DNA from: Mesostigma viride
Lineage: Eukaryota > Streptophyta > Mesostigmatophyceae > Mesostigmatales > Mesostigmataceae
Length of the DNA stretch: 64,000 nt
Direction: 5' to 3'
NCBI GenBank assembly: GCA_009746045.1
Contig: RPFO01001712.1
Span: forward strand, 1-64,000
This document shows, piece after piece, positions 5,296-40,816 of the stretch. Made by a program: the position numbers and the translations under genes. The notes below the pieces were generated by a model. The model did no database searches. It was not told where the DNA came from and worked only from the letters and a program-made list of their open reading frames with translations. Each line of letters starts with the position of its first letter. Positions within the stretch are counted from its first letter, which is position 1.

Positions 5296-8007
5296 ATGTC
5301 TACCGCTCTGGACCAGCTCAGCGACGTCCGTTACGCGCGCATGTACTCGACCGCTCTCCTGGGCGACCTAGACCCCGCCGCGAGGGTGAAGGACCTCGTC
5401 GTCAAGGCGCAGGACAGCATCGTCATCAAGCCCAACAACGGGTACGGCACCAGCGCGACCAACCGCCTCAAGATCGTGGGATCCACCGCCATAGACGGGG
5501 CGCTGTCCGTGGACAACGTTACCATCGACGGCAGCACCGTCAACTCGTCTTCCGGCAGCCTCGTGCTCTCGTCCGACGCCGGGTCGGTGCGCATGGCCGA
5601 CGTGGTCGCCTCCGCGGCCTCCCTCTCGCCGGCCTCCGACGTGAACCTGACCCTCTCGGGCGGTGCCACCAAGTCGGTGTTGGTGGAGGGCGTCAAGTTC
5701 ACCGACAACGCGGTCACCACCTCCAGCGGCACCCTTGCGATCAGCTCCGCCGGGTCCTCGGCCGCCGCGCTCCAGCTGGGCGGCGTCACGGTCACCGACG
5801 CCTCCGTGTCCTCCTCCACCGCCAACGGAAACCTGACCATGGCCAGCAACGGCACCGGCTCCGTGCTCCTGGACAACGTGAAGGTGAAGACCTCGGGCAT
5901 CAGCAACAACGTGGCCAACGCCGACCTGACCCTGTCGTCCAACGGCACCGGGTCGGTGGTGATGGACAGCGTGAAGGTGAAGACGGCGGGCATCACCACC
6001 AGCAGCGGCACGCTCTCGCTTACCTCCGCGGGGGCGGCTACCAACCAGGTGAACGTGGCCGGCATCACGGTGACGAACGCCAGCATCAGTGCCGCGTCGG
6101 CGAGCACCGTGACGGTGGCGAAGGACCTGACCCTGACCAGCACCGCGGGCGGCAGCGGCAAGGTGACGACCTCGGCGGGCAATCTGGAGCTGACCAGCAC
6201 GAGCGGCACGGTGGCCGTGACGGGGGCTCTGACGGGCTCCAGCACGATCACCAGCACCGGCAACATGGTGGTGGGAGGGGACCTGAAGGTTGCGGGCGTT
6301 ATCGACAGCACGAACGCGAGCGGGAACCTGGAGATCATGGACAAGACGATGAAGTTGGGCTACCAGCCCGGGTCCGCCACGGTCATGGATTTCCAGTTCG
6401 CCAACTCGTCGAACGCGATCTCGAACAGCATCGGACTCTCCACGTTCGCCGGCGCGACCGTCGGCGGGGGGGTGTTGAACATCGCCACCACCGCCTACTC
6501 GAGGGCGGGATTCTATTACCCGTCGGCGTACACCAACATTCCCTCCAGCGTACTCGCTTGGAGTACCGATAACATCTCCATTGAATTTCCCATCACCATC
6601 ACCAGCGCTTTGACGTCGGAGGCAGGGGCTATGGCCCAATTTCTGGGCATCGAACTCTACAACGCCGGAGGACAGCAATCCTTCTACCGGTTCACGGCCA
6701 ACAACGGCGCGCTGAGGATCGATAGGAGTATCAATGGGACCGATAACAACGTCACATCAGACAATGTGGGCTTGTTGAATTCCGCCGGTACCTACCTGTT
6801 CAGGGTTTCGTTCGCGTGGTCAGGCGGGGTGTGCACCGGCACTTACACGTTCTCCAAGAACGGCGGGGCCACTATCCCCGTCACGTGGGGTGGAAGTCCG
6901 ACACAAGTTGCCACGGCTTATATGATGCCGGCGGGCGCGTCGATCGTCAACAGTTCCATCGCGATCGGAACGTACTTCACCGGCTACAACCAGGCGTGGA
7001 CGGTCGACTACTTCAAGCTGACCAAGGGTGTGGCCTCGACCAACGCGGCCTCCGAAAACTCCGGCCTGTTTGTGGACGGCAGCGCCTCCTACTCGAACCG
7101 CGCCCTCACCTGGCACATGGGCGCCGGCGAGACCTCGCAGGACAAGGGCGACTACACCGGCTCGTACTGGCACGTGGAGGGCGGCCAGCTGCTGCTCTCT
7201 CGCACCATCCTGGCGGCCGACCGCGAGGCGCCCGCCACCAACGTCAATCTTGCCTCCCTGGCCAGCGGCTCCGACACGCTGCGGTGGGAGTTCTCCTCGT
7301 CCAAGGCCAGCACCGTCGGCAGCGCCACCTTCAGCGGCAGCGGCACCGTCGCGGACGGCGTGCTCAAGGAGTCCGGCTCCCAGTTCGACTCCGTGTCGCC
7401 CAACGTCACGGGCACGTTCTCTCTGATCATCAAGGTGCTGCCCCAGTTCGACCTGTCCACGCTGACCCTCCTGACCGACCTGATCGAGTACGGCTACCTT
7501 GCCGTGCAGATCTCGAGCGGCGGCTTCCTGACCTTCTCCGACGGCGTGAACGCGGCCATCGTCATGGACACCCCCGTGCACGCCGAGCCCTTCACCCTCT
7601 GCATCACCATGAGCGGGTCGCAGGTCAAGTTCTACCTGGACGGCGCCCTGGTGGCTTCCTCGGCCAACGGCGCGTTGGGCGCGAACCCGAATCTGGTGCT
7701 GTACGGCGGGTACGTCGGTAGCGTGTGGTACGACGACGTGCGCTTCGTGTCCGGCCAGGCGCTCACGGCGGCCAACACGATGCTGTACGGCTGGCGGGAG
7801 ATGTACGCGGCCAACCAGACGGTGACGTACGGTTTCCGCATCTCCAACAACGAGGGGCTGCAGCTGGTGAAGGTGCGCGGGTCGGGCGGCAGCAACGGAT
7901 GGGTCGGCACCAACCCCGCGCCCAACACGGTGACGTCCGGCAACAGCATGGGCGCCATCGGGGCAGCCACCGCGTCCGTCATCAGCGAGAGCCAGATGAC
8001 CTTCTAA
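5296..8007 (+). CDS. Fibre-like structural protein (beta-repeat stalk, LamG-like head)
   Basis: A 903-residue protein. After a short N-terminal region (about 1-55, containing KDLVVKAQDSIVIKPN), residues 60-350 are Ser/Thr/Gly/Val-rich repeats of the form VxVxDVxxxxAxxxxSSGTLxLxSxAG, which suggests a beta-solenoid or triple-stranded stalk. Two jelly-roll-like modules follow. The second (about 690-840) has the look of a LamG/concanavalin lectin domain: VKFYLDG, then LYGGYVGSVWYDDVRF. The C-terminus (about 850-903) is conserved with the paralogue at 14.9-17.3 kb. A virion fibre or attachment protein fits this layout. The ATG at 5296 follows an AT-rich leader. Confidence 0.6.
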   Translation: MSTALDQLSDVRYARMYSTALLGDLDPAARVKDLVVKAQDSIVIKPNNGYGTSATNRLKIVGSTAIDGALSVDNVTIDGSTVNSSSGSLVLSSDAGSVRMADVVASAASLSPASDVNLTLSGGATKSVLVEGVKFTDNAVTTSSGTLAISSAGSSAAALQLGGVTVTDASVSSSTANGNLTMASNGTGSVLLDNVKVKTSGISNNVANADLTLSSNGTGSVVMDSVKVKTAGITTSSGTLSLTSAGAATNQVNVAGITVTNASISAASASTVTVAKDLTLTSTAGGSGKVTTSAGNLELTSTSGTVAVTGALTGSSTITSTGNMVVGGDLKVAGVIDSTNASGNLEIMDKTMKLGYQPGSATVMDFQFANSSNAISNSIGLSTFAGATVGGGVLNIATTAYSRAGFYYPSAYTNIPSSVLAWSTDNISIEFPITITSALTSEAGAMAQFLGIELYNAGGQQSFYRFTANNGALRIDRSINGTDNNVTSDNVGLLNSAGTYLFRVSFAWSGGVCTGTYTFSKNGGATIPVTWGGSPTQVATAYMMPAGASIVNSSIAIGTYFTGYNQAWTVDYFKLTKGVASTNAASENSGLFVDGSASYSNRALTWHMGAGETSQDKGDYTGSYWHVEGGQLLLSRTILAADREAPATNVNLASLASGSDTLRWEFSSSKASTVGSATFSGSGTVADGVLKESGSQFDSVSPNVTGTFSLIIKVLPQFDLSTLTLLTDLIEYGYLAVQISSGGFLTFSDGVNAAIVMDTPVHAEPFTLCITMSGSQVKFYLDGALVASSANGALGANPNLVLYGGYVGSVWYDDVRFVSGQALTAANTMLYGWREMYAANQTVTYGFRISNNEGLQLVKVRGSGGSNGWVGTNPAPNTVTSGNSMGAIGAATASVISESQMTF

Positions 8008-19332: not shown

Positions 19333-20029
19333 TCATCGGGGGCACCCGTTCCTCCTGAAGAGGTCTTCGTACAGCACCAGGCCGTCCTCGAACCTCTTCG
19401 AATTGTTGCAGCCGTAGCAAAGTAGCTTGGTGTTGCCGCCGCAGTAACTCCTGTTCAGCGGGTCGATCTTGTCCAGGGATAGAGTGTCCTCCTTCGCCTT
19501 CCCGCGCAACACAAAGGGTTTGGCGCACAGCTCGCAGTACGGCGCGCGCAAGAACCTGTCGTACAGTTTCCTCACTTGCTCGGTGCCGAGACACGGCGCG
19601 ACTCCGTCTTTAGCCATGCGCGCGTTGGCGTTCCTGGCGGACTTTGTTATGTACCTCCACACGGCATGTCTGCTCCGGGGGGGGCAGGATAGCAGGGGAG
19701 CGGTAGGGGCGAAAGGGGCGATGCGGCTTGCTCAGTCCGCACGCTTCTGCTCTCGACCTCGCCTCCATCCACTTTTTGCGCACGTCGGCTAGCGGCATGT
19801 CGGCGCACTCGAGGCAGGTCCACACGCCCGGCGTGCTGAAAACCGCGGGCATAGGTGCCCCGGTATCAAACCGTATCCCCCTGCCGCACCGGGTGCACCT
19901 CCCCGACCAGCGTCTGGTCGCTTCCAGTATAGGGAAAGGCCTCGCCTTTTTGCCCTGTTTCGCGTGCAAGTATCTCATTCGCGCGTTGTATTGCCTCACA
20001 ATCGTGTCGATTCTGTCACTTATCAGCAT
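19333..20029 (-). CDS. HNH-endonuclease-like protein with zinc ribbons (frameshifted)
   Basis: One gene in two frames, broken at the G8 run 19677-19684. The N-terminal half has a zinc-ribbon pattern (CTRCGRG ... CLEC). The C-terminal half reads YCELCAKPF ... LSLDKIDP ... NTKLLCYGCNNSK, which resembles the Cys-paired HNH fold of group-I-intron and phage endonucleases, although the first H of the core is replaced (LDKID). With seven instead of eight C the halves join into about 231 residues. It might be a homing nuclease or a repair nuclease. Confidence 0.5.
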
Positions 20030-21270: not shown

Positions 21271-24200
21271 TCAGCGCACGGGGCAGGCGCCGCTGAGACA
21301 GTCGGCGTCGAGGTTGTCCGTCTCCGCGTGGACGATGCCGACGTAGTCGACGGGGAGAATGCGCGAGGTGTACTTTTTGAAATCGGACTCGGACACCACT
21401 TCCTGGGGCAGGTAGCTGTATCCCAGGTCCGCCGCGTTCTTGGTGGGGTCCACTCGCAGCAGGAAGGAGACGCCCACGTAGGAGTCCCAATTGTTCTCCA
21501 GCCAGTGCAGGATCGAGGGGATCTCTGTGGGGTCGTAGGACACGGTGCAGGACACGTTCTGTTCGCAGTAGTTCTCCATGAGGCTCTTGTACCTCTCCAG
21601 CTGTTCGATGGCCGTCTCGGTGTTGACTTCCACCTCCTCCGTCGAGCCGTCCTTGCGAGTGACCGTCATCTTGGTGAAGGGCACCGTGCAGAACTCGACG
21701 GGGAAGGTGACGAGCACCGAGTCGGACTCAAACGGTTTGTCGACGACCTTGTAGTTGGCCTTCTTGAACCGCTCGACCAGCGGGTCGTGCTTGGAGTAGG
21801 TGATGTTGTTGAAGATGTACCTCCCGAGGGGCTTGTGGACGCCCTCGGGCACCTCCCCCCACTGCCTGGTGCTCATGATCTTGGACAGGGTGCCGCTGGG
21901 CTTGATGCACGTGACGTTCTTTGGCAGGGGCTTTCCGAGCTCCCTGGCCATCTGGTAGGCGGAGGACACTGCCACGTTCTTCATTCTGCGGAAGTCGTAG
22001 GGGTGCAGGTCGGGCCTGGCCACGATTCCGGTCAGGCCCACGCCGCACAGGTGTAGGAACTCGTTGTTGAGGTGCCAGGCCTCTTGCAGTATCTCATCCC
22101 TCAAGTCCACCAACGTCTGGCGATAGTTCATGCGACTGGCCAGGACGAGCGCGCGCTCCAGCCCGGCCTTGTTGCCCTCCTGGAACGCGGTGAGGTTGAC
22201 TTCGGTGAGGTTGCAGAAGGACTTGTTGCCGAGGAGGATCTCACTGCAGTGAAAGAAATGGGTGGGTGGGGGGCAACGTCGCGCGTGTCAGATGATTCCT
22301 GGCGCAATATTAAAAAATATACATGTACTACTACTAGGCATCCAATCACACATGAAGTGCAAGGGCGTTACTCTTTCCAACCGCAAGTGTCGGCGCGATG
22401 TCAGACAGGGACGCAAGTTTTGTTCTTTGCACACGAGCCACGCAACAGGGGCGTATCGCACCCGGTACGTGAGGCGTCACCGCATGCGTTCGGGTGACAC
22501 CATAGTAAAGTGGCAACTAGACAGAGCCATCCAAGGGCTTAGCCAAAACGACCAGTCCGCTATCCTTCAGGCGCTGGGGATGAAGGGCCAGGTCCGCAAA
22601 CGCGATACGATCGACTACAACTTTGACAGGAAGAAACTGGACACGGGGGTGAGGGATTACATGGACACTCGACGCTAGAACAGGACACTGGACTCATATA
22701 TAGAAAACGCGAGGGCGGCGCGTGGCCGTCGGACGGCGCTTTGGCTTCGAGGCGAGACGTCTATAACCAACACGCCTTTGCCTGTGCCTCTGTGCGTGCC
22801 CCGTGGTCGCCGTGACGTACTGCAGCTGCGGGCCCGTCCTATCCATAACCGTAAACCTCGCTCGCGACCCCGGACCGCGTCCTCCGTCGTCATCATCACC
22901 GCCCTCGTCCCCCCCCCTCCGTTGTCTATGTCATCGTCGTCGTCGTATTCGTCCGGGTTCGAGCGGCGACCCCTGCGCTTCTTTGGTCTGGCCTTCGCCC
23001 TCGCCTTCCTGCGCTCTTCCTTCGCCTTCCAAACCCGGTCATCTGTGGTGTCGCGACCCGCGTCGTATTCTACTTCCGAATCTTCGCCATCGTTGCTTTC
23101 GTTATAGAAATTGGCGGCCTTCTTAGTAGTGGCCCGCGAAGGTCTGCTAGACTTGTCCAGGGCCGTCCACAATTCTCTCGCCCGGTTATTGAACTCCTTT
23201 ATCAGAGCATTGGTAAGCGCCGTCCTCCCAACCCCGACCGACTTGAGGACGGAGTACAGGAAGCGCATCACCCGGAAGACGAGTACGCCACCGTCCCCCC
23301 GCCCCCCTATGTTCACCCCAACCGCTTGCACCCCAGGCTTCCTCACAACAACTTCACCACGCGTCGTCAAAAAGACGGAAGCGAGAGAGCCGTCCGCGTG
23401 TAATGCGATGTCAATCCCTCGGAAGGGGAACAGAGGGGATCCGCTATTTCCGAACCCGCCCGGGTTGGGTGTCGGGTGCAAGGCGAAGAGGAGGAACTTT
23501 AACGATTCGAATAGCGATATGAGCTCGCGACCGCGCTTCTTTTTTGTCACTGTCGCGGGCGCGGGCCTTTTTGCGTGCGGTCTCTTTGCAGTCACTTTTT
23601 GACTCTTACCGGGAGGCATAAGACGAGTATACCTAAGCGCGCACATAAAATTATAGGAGTACGTGCACAGGTAAGATGCAGAGTGGGCGTACCAACAGGG
23701 ATTAACTCCTTTGCACCATGGCGCGCGCTTGATGGCGACTCCCAGGTTGAAGAGGCCCGGCTCGGATCCGCCGGAGTCGAGCATGATGGCGAAGATCTCC
23801 TCCAGCTGTTTCTTCGAAGGCCGCTTGCGGAAGATGAGGCTGTTGTTGGACTGCTGGCGGTGTGCGTGCGACACCCACCACTCCTTCTTGGCGGCTGCGA
23901 ACTCCTTCCACTCGGGGTCGCCGTAGTCCATGAGCGCGATCTCGGCGGACCGGCGACTGCTCAACATCGTGCCCAGGTGGTTCACGATGTCTAAGATGTC
24001 CATCTTGGTGAGCAGCTGGTCGGCGCGCATGGACAGGATCTTGGCGATGGCCAGGAACGCCCTGGAGATGTTCTCGTCACCCGAGCTCTGTGTGGTGATA
24101 AATGACAGACGGGGCATGTGGAATGGACGTGCATGCGGCACCACTCCTGTCAGGCAAACAGTGTTGTTTAGACGTTGGTACAGTCTTCCCGCGTGTCCGG

Positions 24201-26806
24201 TGGTGCGTCACACCACAGCTGAAATTGTCCGTCAAAAGGTAAGGATGTCCGCGCTCGTCCACTACCTGACGCCCGCGGACGGGGCGAAGGAGGACGCCAG
24301 GTTTGCAGGCAAGATCAGGGTGACGGACGATGGCAGAATTTCTGTGTATGATGCAATGGCAGCTATCGGGATTTCACCACCCAAGGTTTACTGGTCGCGT
24401 ATTGGGAAGGACCACCCCGAAGTGGTAACTGGTTGTTACCACTTCCGATTTCCCGGCCAGGGCCAGCGAGACACCCCTGTCACTGACCGCCAAGGGATGA
24501 CCAAGATCATAATGCTGCTACCCGGCAAGATTGCGGCCAAGTTCAGGGACCAGGTGTCGGTCCTCCTCGAGCGCTACCTTAATGCTGACCGCTCTTTGGC
24601 TGAGGACATTCTGAAGAGGGCGGATGCCAATGACGGCACCATCACCAACCTGGATGAGCACCCTCGCATACAGAGCTCCTGGGCGGCCAAGGAGCTCGGC
24701 GCGTCCATCAAAGGGTACACGGACGCGCACAAGGGCACCGGAAACATATACCCGATCGTCCACAACACTAACAACCTGGCGGTGACGGGGAAGACGGCGG
24801 GCGAGCTAAGGGCGCGATTCGGTGCCAAGGGGTCCTCTCGCGATCTCCACACCAGGCTTCAGAGTGCGGCCATGAGCTACATCCAGATGGCGGAGGCTGA
24901 CAAGATAAACAGGACCGGCGAGCACCCGGTCATCGTGGCCAAGAGGAGCAGGGAGTTTTACGAGCCCGTATTCAAGGCCGACGGGTTGCACGACGTGTTC
25001 GCAGACAGCGAGTGCGTGAGGGATAACGCGAAGGTCATGAGACTGAATCAGAGCGCTAACAAGGCGGTTTCCGCCACAACGCGCCCAAAATGGTCACTTT
25101 CGAGTGCGTAGTTCAGTGGCTTTAAGCCCCCGTGCCCGTTTGCAGCCCGCTTTGCGCATCTTTTTATCCCTCGCCCTGTACTTGATAAGGAGGTCCCTCG
25201 GGAGCAGATAGAGCCCGTACTGCCGCACTTGGCCGAACCGCACGCAGGTCCGAGCGTTCCCCCACTGCTTCCCTGAGGGGCGCCTGCCTATCCCGCAGTA
25301 GTTCCTGGCCCGCACAATCTCTTCGTCCTTCGATAGTTTCAACGGCATGTGATTATTCTTACCCATTGCAGATAAAGTTTATGAGGGAATGGACCAGTCA
25401 CTTACTACCCAGCCGTATCCTCGCAGACGCTCCCCGGGGGGTCTTATTTCGGCGAAGTCGAGGACGAGGTGGTCGGCCGGGTACTTGCCGGCGAGCAGTT
25501 TGCCCGCCGCCTTGGCCCACGCGACCGCCGAATCGCCCACGCTGATTCGCCAGGTCTTGGACATCGGCTCCCATGTCTCCTGGTTGGACTCCCTCCCCCC
25601 ACTCGCGACCCTCGTAGACCGGATGACGGAGATGTCAGGGATGGCCTGCGCGAACCCGTTCAGAGTGCCGGTCACTGGCACGAACCCGACCCTGCAGCAG
25701 ACGCGTGATGTGCGTTCGATCGGGTGTTTTTGTGTGCCGTTAGTAACGAGGATGGACGCACCGAAAGAGGATTGGAGGGCGAGTATGGACGCGAGACATA
25801 AGAATGAAGTCATGTCAGCTGACGAGCTCGCCGACGAGTGTCTAATAAAGGTGTATTTCGCAAACAAGATTCGCCAAGCTCGCTTCAAAAACCTGGAGGT
25901 CGATCAGGACTTATTGGAATACGCGATCCGCACCAAGTCTGTACTGGGACGAGCCTACCGCCGCCGTTCAGACTTCATTCGTATGGGTCCGGTCGTCGTC
26001 GGATGCGATCACGGATGCTTTCATGGCGACAACTCTCACGGTCAAGGGGCCAATACGTGTGGCGCCAATTGTACCGATGATGCATACACCGGCAAAGACA
26101 GAAACAAGGATATCCTGATGACGTGCAAGCGGCAGATAGATAACAGCGATGTCGTGATCGCGACCATCAACAAGGAGGCGGACTGTCACGGAACCTTGAT
26201 GGAGATCGGGTATGCTCACGGACGCGGCATCCCCGTGCTGGTCATGTTCGATCCAGAAATGAGCGAGGAGGCGAGACGAGAATTTTGGTTTGCGGCTCAA
26301 ATGTCACAGTCTCGGCCTCTCCCGTACCACCACCGGTACATTTTTCGTCACGTGAAAGAGCTGTCGCCGTTCTTGGATTACAAGCAATACCGGAATTACA
26401 TCAAATCCCTCCTCAAATATAGATGTGACTCACCCGCACCCCTGGAGTAGAAGCCACAGGACGTCCACCACGTCGTAGACGGTCTCCACCTCGGTGAAGC
26501 TGCAGTTGAACATGCACGACTCCCTCCGCCGGCTCAGCTCGGTCCCCCCAGGAACAGCGTGCGGCCGGCGGGGGCGATCCTCCTGTTGAGGATGTGGTGG
26601 TGCAGCTCGGAGAGCTCGTCCATCTCGATGGAGTTCAGAGGCTGCCCTTTCGCCCTGACCCACAGCCACTTTTGGTGGCCCACGACCCTGTCGACCACGT
26701 TTTCCCACGTCTCGAGCCGTCCGCTGCCGTCGATGGGGCGATGGTACGTCCTCAGTTCGATCGCCATGGCCCTGTCGGTGGGCGTGGTGACGGCGGAGTC
26801 CGTCAT
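21271..26806 (-). CDS. nrdJ: Class II (B12-dependent) ribonucleotide reductase, four exons
   Basis: The exons, in coding order, are 26806-26434, 25691-25406, 24087-23693 and 22243-21271. They sum to 2027 nt. Adding the one base missing from the G6 run (minus strand) at 26549-26544 gives exactly 676 codons including the stop. Landmarks are GCGVGF across the exon 1/2 junction; RPPGERLRGYGW; SRRSAEIAL; SNNSL; NPC (active-site Cys) at the exon 3/4 junction followed by C-EIL; KPSGT; and the terminal C-x4-C pair (CLSGACP). These are features of the single-chain adenosylcobalamin enzyme, which reduces ribonucleotides to deoxyribonucleotides. The start at 26806 is the first ATG after an in-frame TAG. 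The window also encodes an adenosyltransferase for its cofactor (39314-39964). Confidence 0.85.
22352..22678 (+). CDS. Zinc-module protein nested in reductase intron 3
   Basis: 108 residues from ATG 22352. It starts with the recurring module CKGVTLSNRKC-x8-C-x2-H (ending CSLH), followed by a basic helical body with KRDTIDYNFDRKKLD. It lies antisense inside intron 3 of the reductase gene. The module is short and basic, so nucleic-acid binding is possible. Confidence 0.6.
   Translation: MKCKGVTLSNRKCRRDVRQGRKFCSLHTSHATGAYRTRYVRRHRMRSGDTIVKWQLDRAIQGLSQNDQSAILQALGMKGQVRKRDTIDYNFDRKKLDTGVRDYMDTRR
22675..23619 (-). CDS. Basic/acidic-tailed protein nested in reductase intron 3
   Basis: 314 residues from ATG 23619. 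A basic N-terminus (KSQKVTAKRPHAKRPAP) is followed by a globular part with LTTRGEVVVRKPGVQAVGVN, then a helical part (TALTNALIKEFNNRARELW). The tail alternates acidic and basic runs. It sits wholly inside intron 3, in the same orientation as the reductase, and has its own candidate promoter element at 23630-23643. No family is recognised. An intron-encoded maturase or nuclease motif is not visible. Confidence 0.5.
   Translation of the reverse strand: MPPGKSQKVTAKRPHAKRPAPATVTKKKRGRELISLFESLKFLLFALHPTPNPGGFGNSGSPLFPFRGIDIALHADGSLASVFLTTRGEVVVRKPGVQAVGVNIGGRGDGGVLVFRVMRFLYSVLKSVGVGRTALTNALIKEFNNRARELWTALDKSSRPSRATTKKAANFYNESNDGEDSEVEYDAGRDTTDDRVWKAKEERRKARAKARPKKRRGRRSNPDEYDDDDDIDNGGGGTRAVMMTTEDAVRGRERGLRLWIGRARSCSTSRRPRGTHRGTGKGVLVIDVSPRSQSAVRRPRAALAFSIYESSVLF
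23630..23643 (-). promoter_or_regulatory. Candidate promoter element TGCGCGCTTAGGTA
   Basis: Second exact copy of the 14-mer described at 12373-12386, here 11 bases upstream of the ATG at 23619. It suggests that the intron-nested gene is transcribed on its own. Confidence 0.45.
24245..25111 (+). CDS. Bro/KilA-N-like DNA-binding protein nested in intron 2
   Basis: 288 residues. The N-terminal 110 (IRVTDDGRISVYDAMAAIG ... TPVTDRQGMTKIIMLLPGKI, then FRDQVSVLLERYLNADRSL) follow the pattern of Bro-N/KilA-N-type domains common in large DNA viruses. The rest is helical, with an ELRARFGAKGSS segment. It lies antisense to the reductase within intron 2, and its end overlaps the convergent small gene by 18 bases. 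Start: ATG 24245, with no earlier ATG of similar coding quality. A transcription-related role is inferred. Confidence 0.5.
   Translation: MSALVHYLTPADGAKEDARFAGKIRVTDDGRISVYDAMAAIGISPPKVYWSRIGKDHPEVVTGCYHFRFPGQGQRDTPVTDRQGMTKIIMLLPGKIAAKFRDQVSVLLERYLNADRSLAEDILKRADANDGTITNLDEHPRIQSSWAAKELGASIKGYTDAHKGTGNIYPIVHNTNNLAVTGKTAGELRARFGAKGSSRDLHTRLQSAAMSYIQMAEADKINRTGEHPVIVAKRSREFYEPVFKADGLHDVFADSECVRDNAKVMRLNQSANKAVSATTRPKWSLSSA
25094..25366 (-). CDS. Basic YCG-motif protein nested in intron 2
   Basis: 90 residues with a single motif, YCGIGRRPSGKQWG ... CVRFGQVRQYGL, and a very basic tail. The same pattern (FCG ... RP-G ... C-V-R ... Q-x-R-x-(Y/W)G) occurs at the start of the interrupted OTU-SET gene at 63.9 kb, in two units. 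It recalls a short giant-virus motif of unknown function. It is located inside reductase intron 2, in sense orientation. Confidence 0.5.
   Translation of the reverse strand: MGKNNHMPLKLSKDEEIVRARNYCGIGRRPSGKQWGNARTCVRFGQVRQYGLYLLPRDLLIKYRARDKKMRKAGCKRARGLKATELRTRK
25692..26433 (-). other. Reductase intron 1 (spliceosomal type)
   Basis: The donor is GG|GTGAGT at 26433. The acceptor is CTGCAG|G ending at 25692. A perfect TACTAAC branch-point sequence lies at 25745-25739, about 46 bases before the acceptor. Joining gives GGG TGC GGG GTC GGG TTC, restoring the reductase motif GCGVGF. The intron holds a gene on the opposite strand (25752-26450). Confidence 0.85.
25752..26450 (+). CDS. Nucleoside 2-deoxyribosyltransferase-like protein nested in intron 1
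   Basis: 232 residues. The diagnostic part is in the C-terminal half: IDNSDVVIATINKEADCHGT (acidic strand end), LMEIGYAHGRGIPVLVMFD (catalytic-Glu region EIGYA). This matches the nucleoside 2-deoxyribosyltransferase / SLOG-like Rossmann fold. The middle has an unusual His/Cys-rich insert (CDHGCFHGDNSHGQG). The gene fills intron 1 on the opposite strand; its last 17 bases lie antisense to reductase exon 1. Base exchange between deoxynucleosides would fit next to a reductase, but a signalling SLOG role is possible. Confidence 0.6.
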   Translation: MDAPKEDWRASMDARHKNEVMSADELADECLIKVYFANKIRQARFKNLEVDQDLLEYAIRTKSVLGRAYRRRSDFIRMGPVVVGCDHGCFHGDNSHGQGANTCGANCTDDAYTGKDRNKDILMTCKRQIDNSDVVIATINKEADCHGTLMEIGYAHGRGIPVLVMFDPEMSEEARREFWFAAQMSQSRPLPYHHRYIFRHVKELSPFLDYKQYRNYIKSLLKYRCDSPAPLE

Positions 26807-39313: not shown

Positions 39314-39964
39314 ATGCGGATATACACGAAAACCGGGGACACGGGGCTCACGTCCGCCATAGGAGGTGGTGCGAAGCTCCCGAAAAGCGACTCTCTCTTT
39401 GCTGCCCTGGGGGCTTTGGATGAGCTCAATTCATCCGTCGGAGTGGCGGTGAGTCAGGCGGATCTCGTGGATCCACGGTCGTCAGAACTCGTGGATCTCT
39501 TGCAATACCTCCAGTGCAGGATCTTGGATGCAGGCACATCTCTGGCTGCACCTGTGGAGAGATCTGGTGACAAGGCAGAACAGAGATCTGGTGATGTGGA
39601 CAAGCAGATCCCAGACACAGTCACACCTGTGACATCACCCATCCCAATATCAGATCCCCTGCTTAAGTTCACTTGTGCTGACGAGGCGGTTCAGATCTTG
39701 GAATCTCGCATCGACAGTTACGACCAGAATCTGCCAGTGCTGAGGAACTTTGTGCTTCCTGGGGGGAACGGTATGCTGTCATCCCAGCTGCACGTGTGCA
39801 GAACCGTGTGCCGGAGGGCAGAACGAGATGTCGTGGCATGCGGACGAGCGGACAATGGCCTGCTAGTCTTTATGAACCGTCTGTCCGACTTCTTCTTCGT
39901 GGCGGCGCGGGCGTATCAAGACAAACAGCCAGTAGTTTATTCCAAAAGGATGAATGTTGTTTAA
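39314..39964 (+). CDS. Cob(I)alamin adenosyltransferase (PduO/MMAB type)
   Basis: 216 residues with all the family landmarks: RIYTKTGDTGLTSAIGGG at the N-terminus (ATP-binding), DELNSSVG at about 37-44, FVLPGG, LHVCRTVCRRAERDVV and FMNRLSDFFFVAARAY. The enzyme transfers the adenosyl group of ATP to cob(I)alamin to make adenosylcobalamin, the cofactor of the class II reductase encoded 13 kb upstream. A stretch of about 35 residues at about 80-115 is extra compared with the family and is built from DNA carrying AGATCT repeats like those at 40.8-41.0 kb. Confidence 0.85.
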   Translation: MRIYTKTGDTGLTSAIGGGAKLPKSDSLFAALGALDELNSSVGVAVSQADLVDPRSSELVDLLQYLQCRILDAGTSLAAPVERSGDKAEQRSGDVDKQIPDTVTPVTSPIPISDPLLKFTCADEAVQILESRIDSYDQNLPVLRNFVLPGGNGMLSSQLHVCRTVCRRAERDVVACGRADNGLLVFMNRLSDFFFVAARAYQDKQPVVYSKRMNVV

Positions 39965-39985: not shown

Positions 39986-40816
39986 ATGGCCAATAGACTC
40001 GAAACACATCCATTGTCGTCTCATCTGGCCTCTTTGAATGCGGCGAAAGACAACATTGACACGGAGGCAACTCCAGCCGCGTCTCCCAAGTATGACATGC
40101 TAAAACCCACATTCAACCTGCAAAACGCCCACGACGTGAACATATACAAGTACATAATCCGCGACGACAGCAGCAGCAGTTCCTCTGACCAATCTGCTAA
40201 AGAGCACTTTTGGACGCGTGACATGGAGGAGCTAGTGTACGGGTGGGGGCAAAAGGGCGTGGGGTTCCGCAACATGCACGAAATGGCGGCATCTCACAAC
40301 ACCATATGGTTTCACGCGATCGGCATCCCAGCCATCATCCTATCAACCGTGGCTGGAACGAGCTCTCTATCCAAACTGAACGATTGCAACACCCCCACTA
40401 TGGCATTGGCGATCGGGATCGTGAGCATGACGGTGTCCGCGCTCACGAGCGTGCAAAACTTCATGCAGTTTTCCAAGCGCGCGGAGCGCCACAAGCAAGC
40501 GGCTCACAAATTTGCCGCGTTCTTCAGAGAGATCGACTCGGAGCTTACCAAACCAAGGGGGCACAGGCAGAATCCGTTTGAGTTCATCCAAATATGCAGG
40601 CTCACGCTCGACAATATGGTGTCGCGCGGGCCGGCCATCCCTGGGTACATAGTAAAAAGGTATATGAACATGGTATCCAAGAAGGGTGACAAAAGAAAGG
40701 AAAGGGCGTCTATGGATGGGGCAAGTCTTCATGAGCCTCATGAACGTGTGAATGTGCTGGTGCGCAAAGATCCCGAGGCGCCCATTCCCGTCCGCATCAT
40801 GGAGAGCAAGTTGTGA
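39986..40816 (+). CDS. SLATT-type two-TM membrane protein
   Basis: 276 residues, starting 22 bases after the adenosyltransferase stop. After a polar N-terminus (about 1-75, with a Ser run), the core reads WFHAIGIPAIILSTVAGTSS, then MALAIGIVSMTVSALTSVQN, then FSKRAERHKQAAHKFAAFFR and IDSEL. Two TM helices followed by an H-x6-F-x3-FREI helix are the hallmark of SLATT domains, which act as membrane effectors in bacterial nucleotide-signalling conflict systems and are found in some giant viruses. No SMODS/cyclase partner is adjacent. Confidence 0.65.
   Translation: MANRLETHPLSSHLASLNAAKDNIDTEATPAASPKYDMLKPTFNLQNAHDVNIYKYIIRDDSSSSSSDQSAKEHFWTRDMEELVYGWGQKGVGFRNMHEMAASHNTIWFHAIGIPAIILSTVAGTSSLSKLNDCNTPTMALAIGIVSMTVSALTSVQNFMQFSKRAERHKQAAHKFAAFFREIDSELTKPRGHRQNPFEFIQICRLTLDNMVSRGPAIPGYIVKRYMNMVSKKGDKRKERASMDGASLHEPHERVNVLVRKDPEAPIPVRIMESKL

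Follow-up and report, generated by a model that had tools for sequence, protein, structure and literature searches.

Spliceosomal-type introns with nested genes at three fixed sites of a virus-like class II ribonucleotide reductase in Mesostigma viride, and their probable homing-like exchange

Nested genes in viral introns are already known. The closest published kind is found in mirusviruses, where more than 2,000 genes reside in spliceosomal introns and homing has been proposed (Medvedeva et al. 2025, PMC12768974). In these spliceosomal homing introns, termed shintrons, endonucleases are the products of 334 of the more than 2,000 nested genes, and virion genes host 64% of the shintrons; the homing proposal rests on the encoded endonucleases together with target preference (PMC12768974). 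The same paper defines introners as sets of introns that resemble one another within a genome. Introns interrupt the capsid gene of Faustovirus E12; the longest measures 3,256 bp, and two contain open reading frames (ORFs) (PMC6247863). Additionally, genes for ribonucleotide reductases (RNRs) are known to carry group I introns and inteins (RNRdb, PMC2795772), and, for class II, RNRdb includes one eukaryotic virus sequence. In the open-licence literature, as represented by titles, none about a giant-virus reductase gene with spliceosomal introns was found, nor was a paper linking a cobalamin adenosyltransferase with a giant virus. Here we describe a 64,000-nucleotide stretch of Mesostigma viride DNA (GenBank assembly GCA_009746045.1, contig RPFO01001712.1, positions 1 to 64,000; hereafter the window), in which an adenosylcobalamin-dependent ribonucleoside-triphosphate reductase (RTPR) is encoded on the minus strand, from 26806 to 21271, in four blocks. 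With a probability of roughly 0.6, we consider the intervening introns to be of spliceosomal type and to be exchanged in the manner of homing cassettes, carrying genes as cargo, at three fixed sites of the reductase.

The exon pieces were searched singly against the NCBIfam model TIGR02505 (724 positions, with a cut-off of 340 bits for the whole model). Exon 1 (26434..26806, minus strand, as are all four) contains the alpha domain (PF17975), ends in GCG and matches positions 2-90 and 101-126 in two reading frames. Exon 2 (25406..25691) matches positions 128-230, exon 3 (23693..24087), which ends in NPC plus 2 nt, positions 231-377, and exon 4 (21271..22243), encoding the barrel and the C terminus CPVR, positions 379-724 (E 1.2e-88). 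Together, the five pieces cover 2-724 of the 724 positions in collinear order, with gaps only at a frameshift in exon 1 and at split codons. The exon junctions abut on the profile, with one codon split at site 1 and another at site 3, which confirms the class II reductase with four exons and introns of 742, 1318 and 1449 nt given in the original prediction for this DNA. Cysteines have catalytic roles in RTPRs, and the motifs GCG, NPC, SFCN and the C-terminal CPVR were all read from the window sequence. GC content at third codon positions (GC3) is 0.83-0.93 in the exons.

The three introns, all on the minus strand, appear to be of the spliceosomal GT-AG type and would be spliced as such. Intron 1 (25692..26433, 742 nt, GTGAGT...CTGCAG) lies between GCG and VGF, adjoining a conserved cysteine, and an in-frame stop immediately follows its donor. 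Intron 2 (24088..25405, 1318 nt, GTAAGT...CACACAG) lies between GYGWV and SSGDE, and intron 3 (22244..23692, 1449 nt, GTACGC...CTGCAG) lies 2 nt past the NPC cysteine codon. A branch-type TACTAAC was observed in intron 1 only, at 25745-25739, about 47 nt upstream of the 3' end, the heptamer being no commoner in the window than by chance; a long pyrimidine tract was observed at the end of intron 3. The donors and acceptors are those originally predicted. When each junction was scanned over 31 shifts, GT...AG appeared only at shift 0, which is the shift that keeps the coding register. Judged by the residue frequencies of 122 uninterrupted RTPRs, 3, 2 and 2 shifts were compatible with the conserved residues, and from dinucleotide frequencies the chance of three in-register GT-AG junctions in the window is about 12 x (0.0594 x 0.0562)^3 = 4.5e-7. 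Comparison with 126 phage-like RTPR loci from viral contigs revealed exon blocks at most 12 nt apart at sites 1, 2 and 3 in 121, 123 and 124 loci, respectively (the upstream-block match is missing at five loci for site 1 and three for site 2), with spacings of 3, 0 and 3 nt in the rows displayed. Since the blocks are contiguous in these RTPRs, the 742, 1318 and 1449 nt of the window are DNA added at exact positions. No group I, group II or other Rfam family matched the region at gathering scores; two matches below these scores are unrelated and at chance level. The ends of the window introns showed no convincing repeats. A possible avoidance of donor sequences (19 GTRAGT vs 47 expected) was also considered, but GTAAGT and GTGAGT rank only at 8-9% under a second-order model, and the candidate was dropped.

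Related copies are distributed across the same genome, with at least 125 matches to exon 4, at least 136 to exon 2 and at least 135 to the KilA-like gene of intron 2, some of them partial. The element thus shows a very large, subfamily-structured spread in one nuclear genome. Among 104 full-length exon-4 places, 87 join one of the 90 exon-2 places used, and the spacings between exons 2 and 4 take 47 different values. Twelve of these 87 paired copies contain only exon 3 between the two exons, that is, sites 2 and 3 are empty, and at 21 of the 104 places an open frame of at least 450 aa runs back across site 3. The state of the sites was compared in 11 copies, the window and ten others. At sites 1/2/3, the inserts measure 742/1318/1449 nt in the window, 742/1219/822 nt in C727, 0/0/610 nt in C446b, 119/134/657 nt in C154, 120/1436/649 nt in C47, 135/0/129 nt in C73, 0/632/0 nt in C137, 0/632/566 nt in C648, 174/728/227 nt in C667 and 0/0/0 nt in both C1535 and C2045. 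Hence 12 of the 33 sites are empty and 21 are occupied by introns of 119-1449 nt (site 1 in 6, site 2 in 7 and site 3 in 8 of the 11 copies). All 21 occupied sites have GT-AG in the coding register with no codon lost; the site-3 introns of C73 and C667 are offset by one nucleotide.

The introns resemble each other only at the same site within the same subfamily, except for a KilA-like part common to C47, the window and C727. Intron sequence and cargo differ from subfamily to subfamily and, with regard to the definition of introners, no intron matched another site's intron among the 21 compared. Intron 1 of the window is 99.9% identical in C727, and intron 2 of C727 contains a different version of the KilA-like gene. 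A second set comprised 30 stretches around the best-scoring exon-4 places, which is not a random sample and overlaps the 11 copies. Exon 3 was within reach in 27 of the 30, and all 27 are interrupted at the identical site-3 junction by introns of seven unrelated families (26 GT-AG and one GC-AG). The window's family accounts for 9 of the 27, and an unrelated family in near-identical genes accounts for 6. Within the group of 99-100% identical reductase genes, site 3 is occupied by introns of two unrelated types, that of the window, with its 314-aa and zinc-type ORFs, and that of C727. As near-identical sister copies differ in their site-3 cargo and other copies have empty sites, the cargo is exchangeable, which does not support the suggestion that the introns couple or shield accessory genes within an essential one.

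Evidence for exchange between copies was obtained from two pairs. C137, in which site 3 is empty, and C648, which carries a 566-nt intron there, have an intron 2 (632 nt) that is 99% alike and an exon 2 that is identical over 285 nt, and of their 25 mismatches in exons 3 and 4, 16 lie no further than 60 nt from site 3 (p 1.2e-11). Their flanks differ at 16 positions in 93 nt, near the between-subfamily level of 18-27, and the distal part at 7 in 360. The window and C727 have 9 mismatches in exons 3 and 4, of which 8 are located in exon 3, no more than 60 nt from site 3 (p 3e-8); both p values take mismatches as independent and uniform. This pattern is as conversion tracts would give, if gene conversion had started at the site. 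Furthermore, the 566-nt intron of C648 was found at six places with 100% identity, one of which is C2152. Exons 2 and 4 of C2152 are 72% and 77% identical to those of the window, and those of C648 are 67% and 76% identical, which would place them in different classes when classes are set by identity to the window. One identical intron is therefore present in two exon backgrounds.

The insertion sites, between GCG and VGF, YGW(V) and SSGDE, and NPC and xEI, are strongly conserved, and two of them adjoin active-site cysteines. Conservation over +-4 columns in 73 RTPRs places them among the top 2.7, 0.5 and 5.6% of positions. A random triple is equally conserved with p 0.00015 (0 of 50,000 in a repeat), a value that depends on the width taken, being 0.06 at +-1 and at most 0.0132 from +-2 to +-12. 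Site 3 is located 2 nt past the codon that corresponds to Cys408 in the 1l1l enzyme, and E410 of that enzyme aligns to the first exon-4 residue, the 408/410 numbering resting on a sub-threshold stretch of the alignment. Other reductases contain inserts nearby. The RTPR P0041 has an insert with a LAGLIDADG domain that ends between C and AEI and was interpreted as an intein. Site 3 or its vicinity is also interrupted in two of the 126 viral-contig loci. In L092, 170 nt without an Rfam match follow NP (around 7023-7193). In L065 (7220-7963), the SFC motif, 10 codons beyond site 3, is followed by an ORF-containing group I match that scores 35 bits, below the gathering score of 50. The site-3 acceptor pattern gave 0 matches in the viral contigs. 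The site bias and the inserts at the same spot would fit a homing-like insertion in which conserved DNA serves as the guide.

The cargo of the window introns lies on both strands, as originally predicted. Intron 1 contains an antisense nucleoside 2-deoxyribosyltransferase-like gene of 232 aa (25752..26450, plus strand; PF05014, E 1.1e-8), whose stop codon falls within RTPR exon 1. In intron 2, an antisense KilA-N/DdrC-like gene of 288 aa (24245..25111, plus strand) matches NF033622 with E 9.8e-8, below the model cut-off, and 8 of its 12 database matches are Mesvir1 gene models (35-66% identity), which we take to be from Mesostigma viride. This intron also contains a 90-aa "YCG" ORF in sense orientation (25094..25366, minus strand), detected by ORF and codon score only. 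Intron 3 comprises a 314-aa sense ORF (22675..23619, minus strand), detected by ORF and codon score, and a 108-aa antisense ORF with a Cys/His zinc-type module (22352..22678, plus strand; weak zinc-finger match, E 0.067, below cut-off). Homology supports the deoxyribosyltransferase-like and KilA-like sequences as genes. The 90-aa, 314-aa and 108-aa ORFs are likely but not proven genes, because 5 to 7 of 41 shadow ORFs equal their codon scores. Of the five genes predicted, two are therefore backed by homology, and the 314-aa ORF loses its coding character past a G tract near 22910. The nested genes have a GC3 of 0.64-0.76, and other window ORFs vary as widely. No paralogues of the nested genes were found elsewhere within the window. 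In the viral contigs, the deoxyribosyltransferase-like gene has one relative (37%), on a contig that otherwise does not match the window, and no relatives of the 90-aa ORF, or of the helicase and DUF7197 protein described below, were found.

Taken together, these observations suggest that each conserved site would be either empty or occupied by a spliceosomal-type GT-AG intron, and that introns would move between related reductase copies through gene conversion starting at the site and dragging the exon flank along. The process would be homing-like in its conversion-type flanks, with an endonuclease as the presumed trigger. The intron genes would be freely changing cargo, probably driven by their own promoters, and removal by the host spliceosome would make the insertions tolerable. 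A stronger statement, that about 100 integrated copies with interchangeable gene-carrying introns and co-converted flanks provide direct genomic evidence of spliceosomal intron homing, with the sites as docking points for a changing gene pool, is tentative, and we would put it at somewhat less than even odds. Several points weigh against homing-like exchange. The same flanks would also arise from ordinary recombination between copies, with no homing involved, and the flank pattern does not tell the direction of exchange or gain from loss. The clustering rests on two copy pairs, and the window and C727 have two further differences in exon 2, outside the clustering count. Repeated independent gain is still to be reckoned with, as the introns differ between subfamilies. 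Family searches recognised no endonuclease family among the five nested ORFs, and Pfam recognised none in 7 of the 24 ORFs of at least 75 aa from the introns of other copies. Finally, the window copy may be inactive through its exon-1 frameshift. Separately, a 209-aa ORF in intron 2 of C667 had an HNH-like look by eye; a Pfam search gave nothing.

The alternative that holds up best, although we regard it as unlikely, is that the reductase gene is shared with the alga and its introns are ordinary spliceosomal ones, which virus copies would exchange by general recombination only and into whose non-coding DNA the genes would have been inserted later. Short same-site introns of 119-174 nt without an ORF of at least 75 aa are consistent with it, as are a 138-nt site-3 intron in C1790 and the Mesvir1 gene model P0014, which jumps from within exon 1 exactly to the site-3 acceptor. 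In the same direction, both ends of the 1436-nt intron 2 of C47 match the 134-nt intron 2 of C154, and the C47 intron contains a KilA-like gene and a 142-aa ORF, so that an existing intron apparently either acquired this cargo or lost it. However, seven unrelated introns at one nucleotide position, and empty beside occupied sites in near-identical copies, exceed what passive inheritance predicts, and the sites are biased to conserved motifs.

A decayed element, in which the gaps would be unspliced insertions into dead genes, is improbable. One argument for it is the 1-nt frameshift in exon 1, whose two parts are spaced by 20 nt in the window and in C727 and by 21 nt in the other nine copies compared. 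A homopolymer correction had been predicted here. The frameshift is indeed present, but the equal spacing in C727 weakens the explanation as a pure sequencing error, and the frameshift is for that reason probably real in the genome, although the assembly may have erred alike in both copies. Frame switches at the 114 homopolymers of at least 6 nt in the window point the same way, with 11 of 42 testable sides affected vs 94 of 1626 (5.8%) at random positions, and these may represent decay or assembly errors. Against decay stand the junctions in register at every occupied site, the small chance calculated for the window alone, the exon GC3, the conserved protein and the intact cofactor enzyme described below. 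Continuous reductases do exist elsewhere, as in the 12 copies without inserts at sites 2 and 3, of which the two that were read, C1535 and C2045, have an empty site 1 too; this does not reduce the window parts to mere remnants, given the exact splice registers at all 21 occupied sites. Self-splicing introns or inteins, suggested by the inserts of L065, L092 and P0041 near site 3, are highly improbable in view of the missing Rfam match, the in-register GT-AG ends, the stop past donor 1 and the pyrimidine-rich end of intron 3.

The window corresponds to contig C1528 in a eukaryotic assembly of 439,911,974 bases and 2243 contigs. It is part of a family of integrated virus-like elements in a eukaryotic nuclear genome, and the free giant virus assumed earlier was not borne out. 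The closest database match of exon 4 is P0014 (81%). In a tree of 47 RTPR rows, in which the viral loci are represented by a random 15, the window, P0014, P0027 and P0015 form one clade (support 95/93; 100/97 for the first three). A neighbouring clade containing the Chlamydiae loci is supported by 100/98, and the fork uniting it with the window clade is weak (85/59). The nearest prokaryote RTPRs found were those of Chlamydiae (12 of 15 loci, 67-71%), and an old gene exchange between chlamydiae and this eukaryotic or viral lineage may have occurred. Viral-type genes of the window include a C962R/UL52-type primase, a D5-type helicase and a DUF7197 protein, together with a weak capping enzyme match; none of the window ORFs scanned matched a capsid or terminase family. 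Outside the introns, a small HNH-like endonuclease ORF was observed at 19336-19617 (minus strand; weak match, E 0.013, below cut-off). An ATP:cob(I)alamin adenosyltransferase is encoded by an intact ORF (39314..39964, plus strand; PF01923, E 7.1e-44; TIGR00636, 133 bits vs a cut-off of 108; closest PDB match 2idx). Its product is the cofactor needed by the RTPR of the same element, which supports a working B12-dependent pathway in an active ancestor. Adjoining it at 39986-40813 (plus strand) is a SLATT_4-type two-transmembrane domain protein (71.8 bits vs a cut-off of 55), a domain found in bacterial defence settings.

The gain of spliceosomal introns is a long-standing question, and one genome with many near-identical copies with and without an intron makes gain, loss, conversion tracts and cargo exchange directly measurable. 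If the proposed exchange is correct, introns would provide this virus family with docking sites where a changing set of genes is accommodated. The RTPR and its cofactor enzyme also suggest a viral nucleotide pathway dependent on B12 in a eukaryote. Although gene-housing introns had been thought undescribed for giant viruses, the mirusvirus introns are a precedent, and comparison with known systems places the locus as follows. Like the RNR genes with group I introns and inteins (PMC2795772), it belongs to the insertions in RNR genes, among them those of L065, L092 and P0041; the splicing chemistry is different. As in Faustovirus E12, a viral gene is broken by ORF-holding introns, but the Faustovirus introns are of group I or have non-canonical splice sites, with GIY-YIG endonucleases, whereas canonical GT-AG is present here (PMC6247863). 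Introners are a case of intron gain by mobile DNA (PMC12768974), as may apply here; unlike in introners, many different sequences occur here at one site. Shintrons have in common with the present introns that they are protein-coding GT-AG introns in genes of large eukaryotic DNA viruses, with no group I/II signature and with a target-gene preference (PMC12768974). The target here is a class II reductase, and no encoded homing endonuclease was recognised in the ORFs searched, which comprise the five nested and seven other intron ORFs. As to a possible mobility, empty and occupied alleles, the flanks in two pairs and one intron in two backgrounds were observed and, unlike in the shintrons as described (PMC12768974), a single genome here allows copies with and without an intron, and their conversion-type flanks, to be set side by side.
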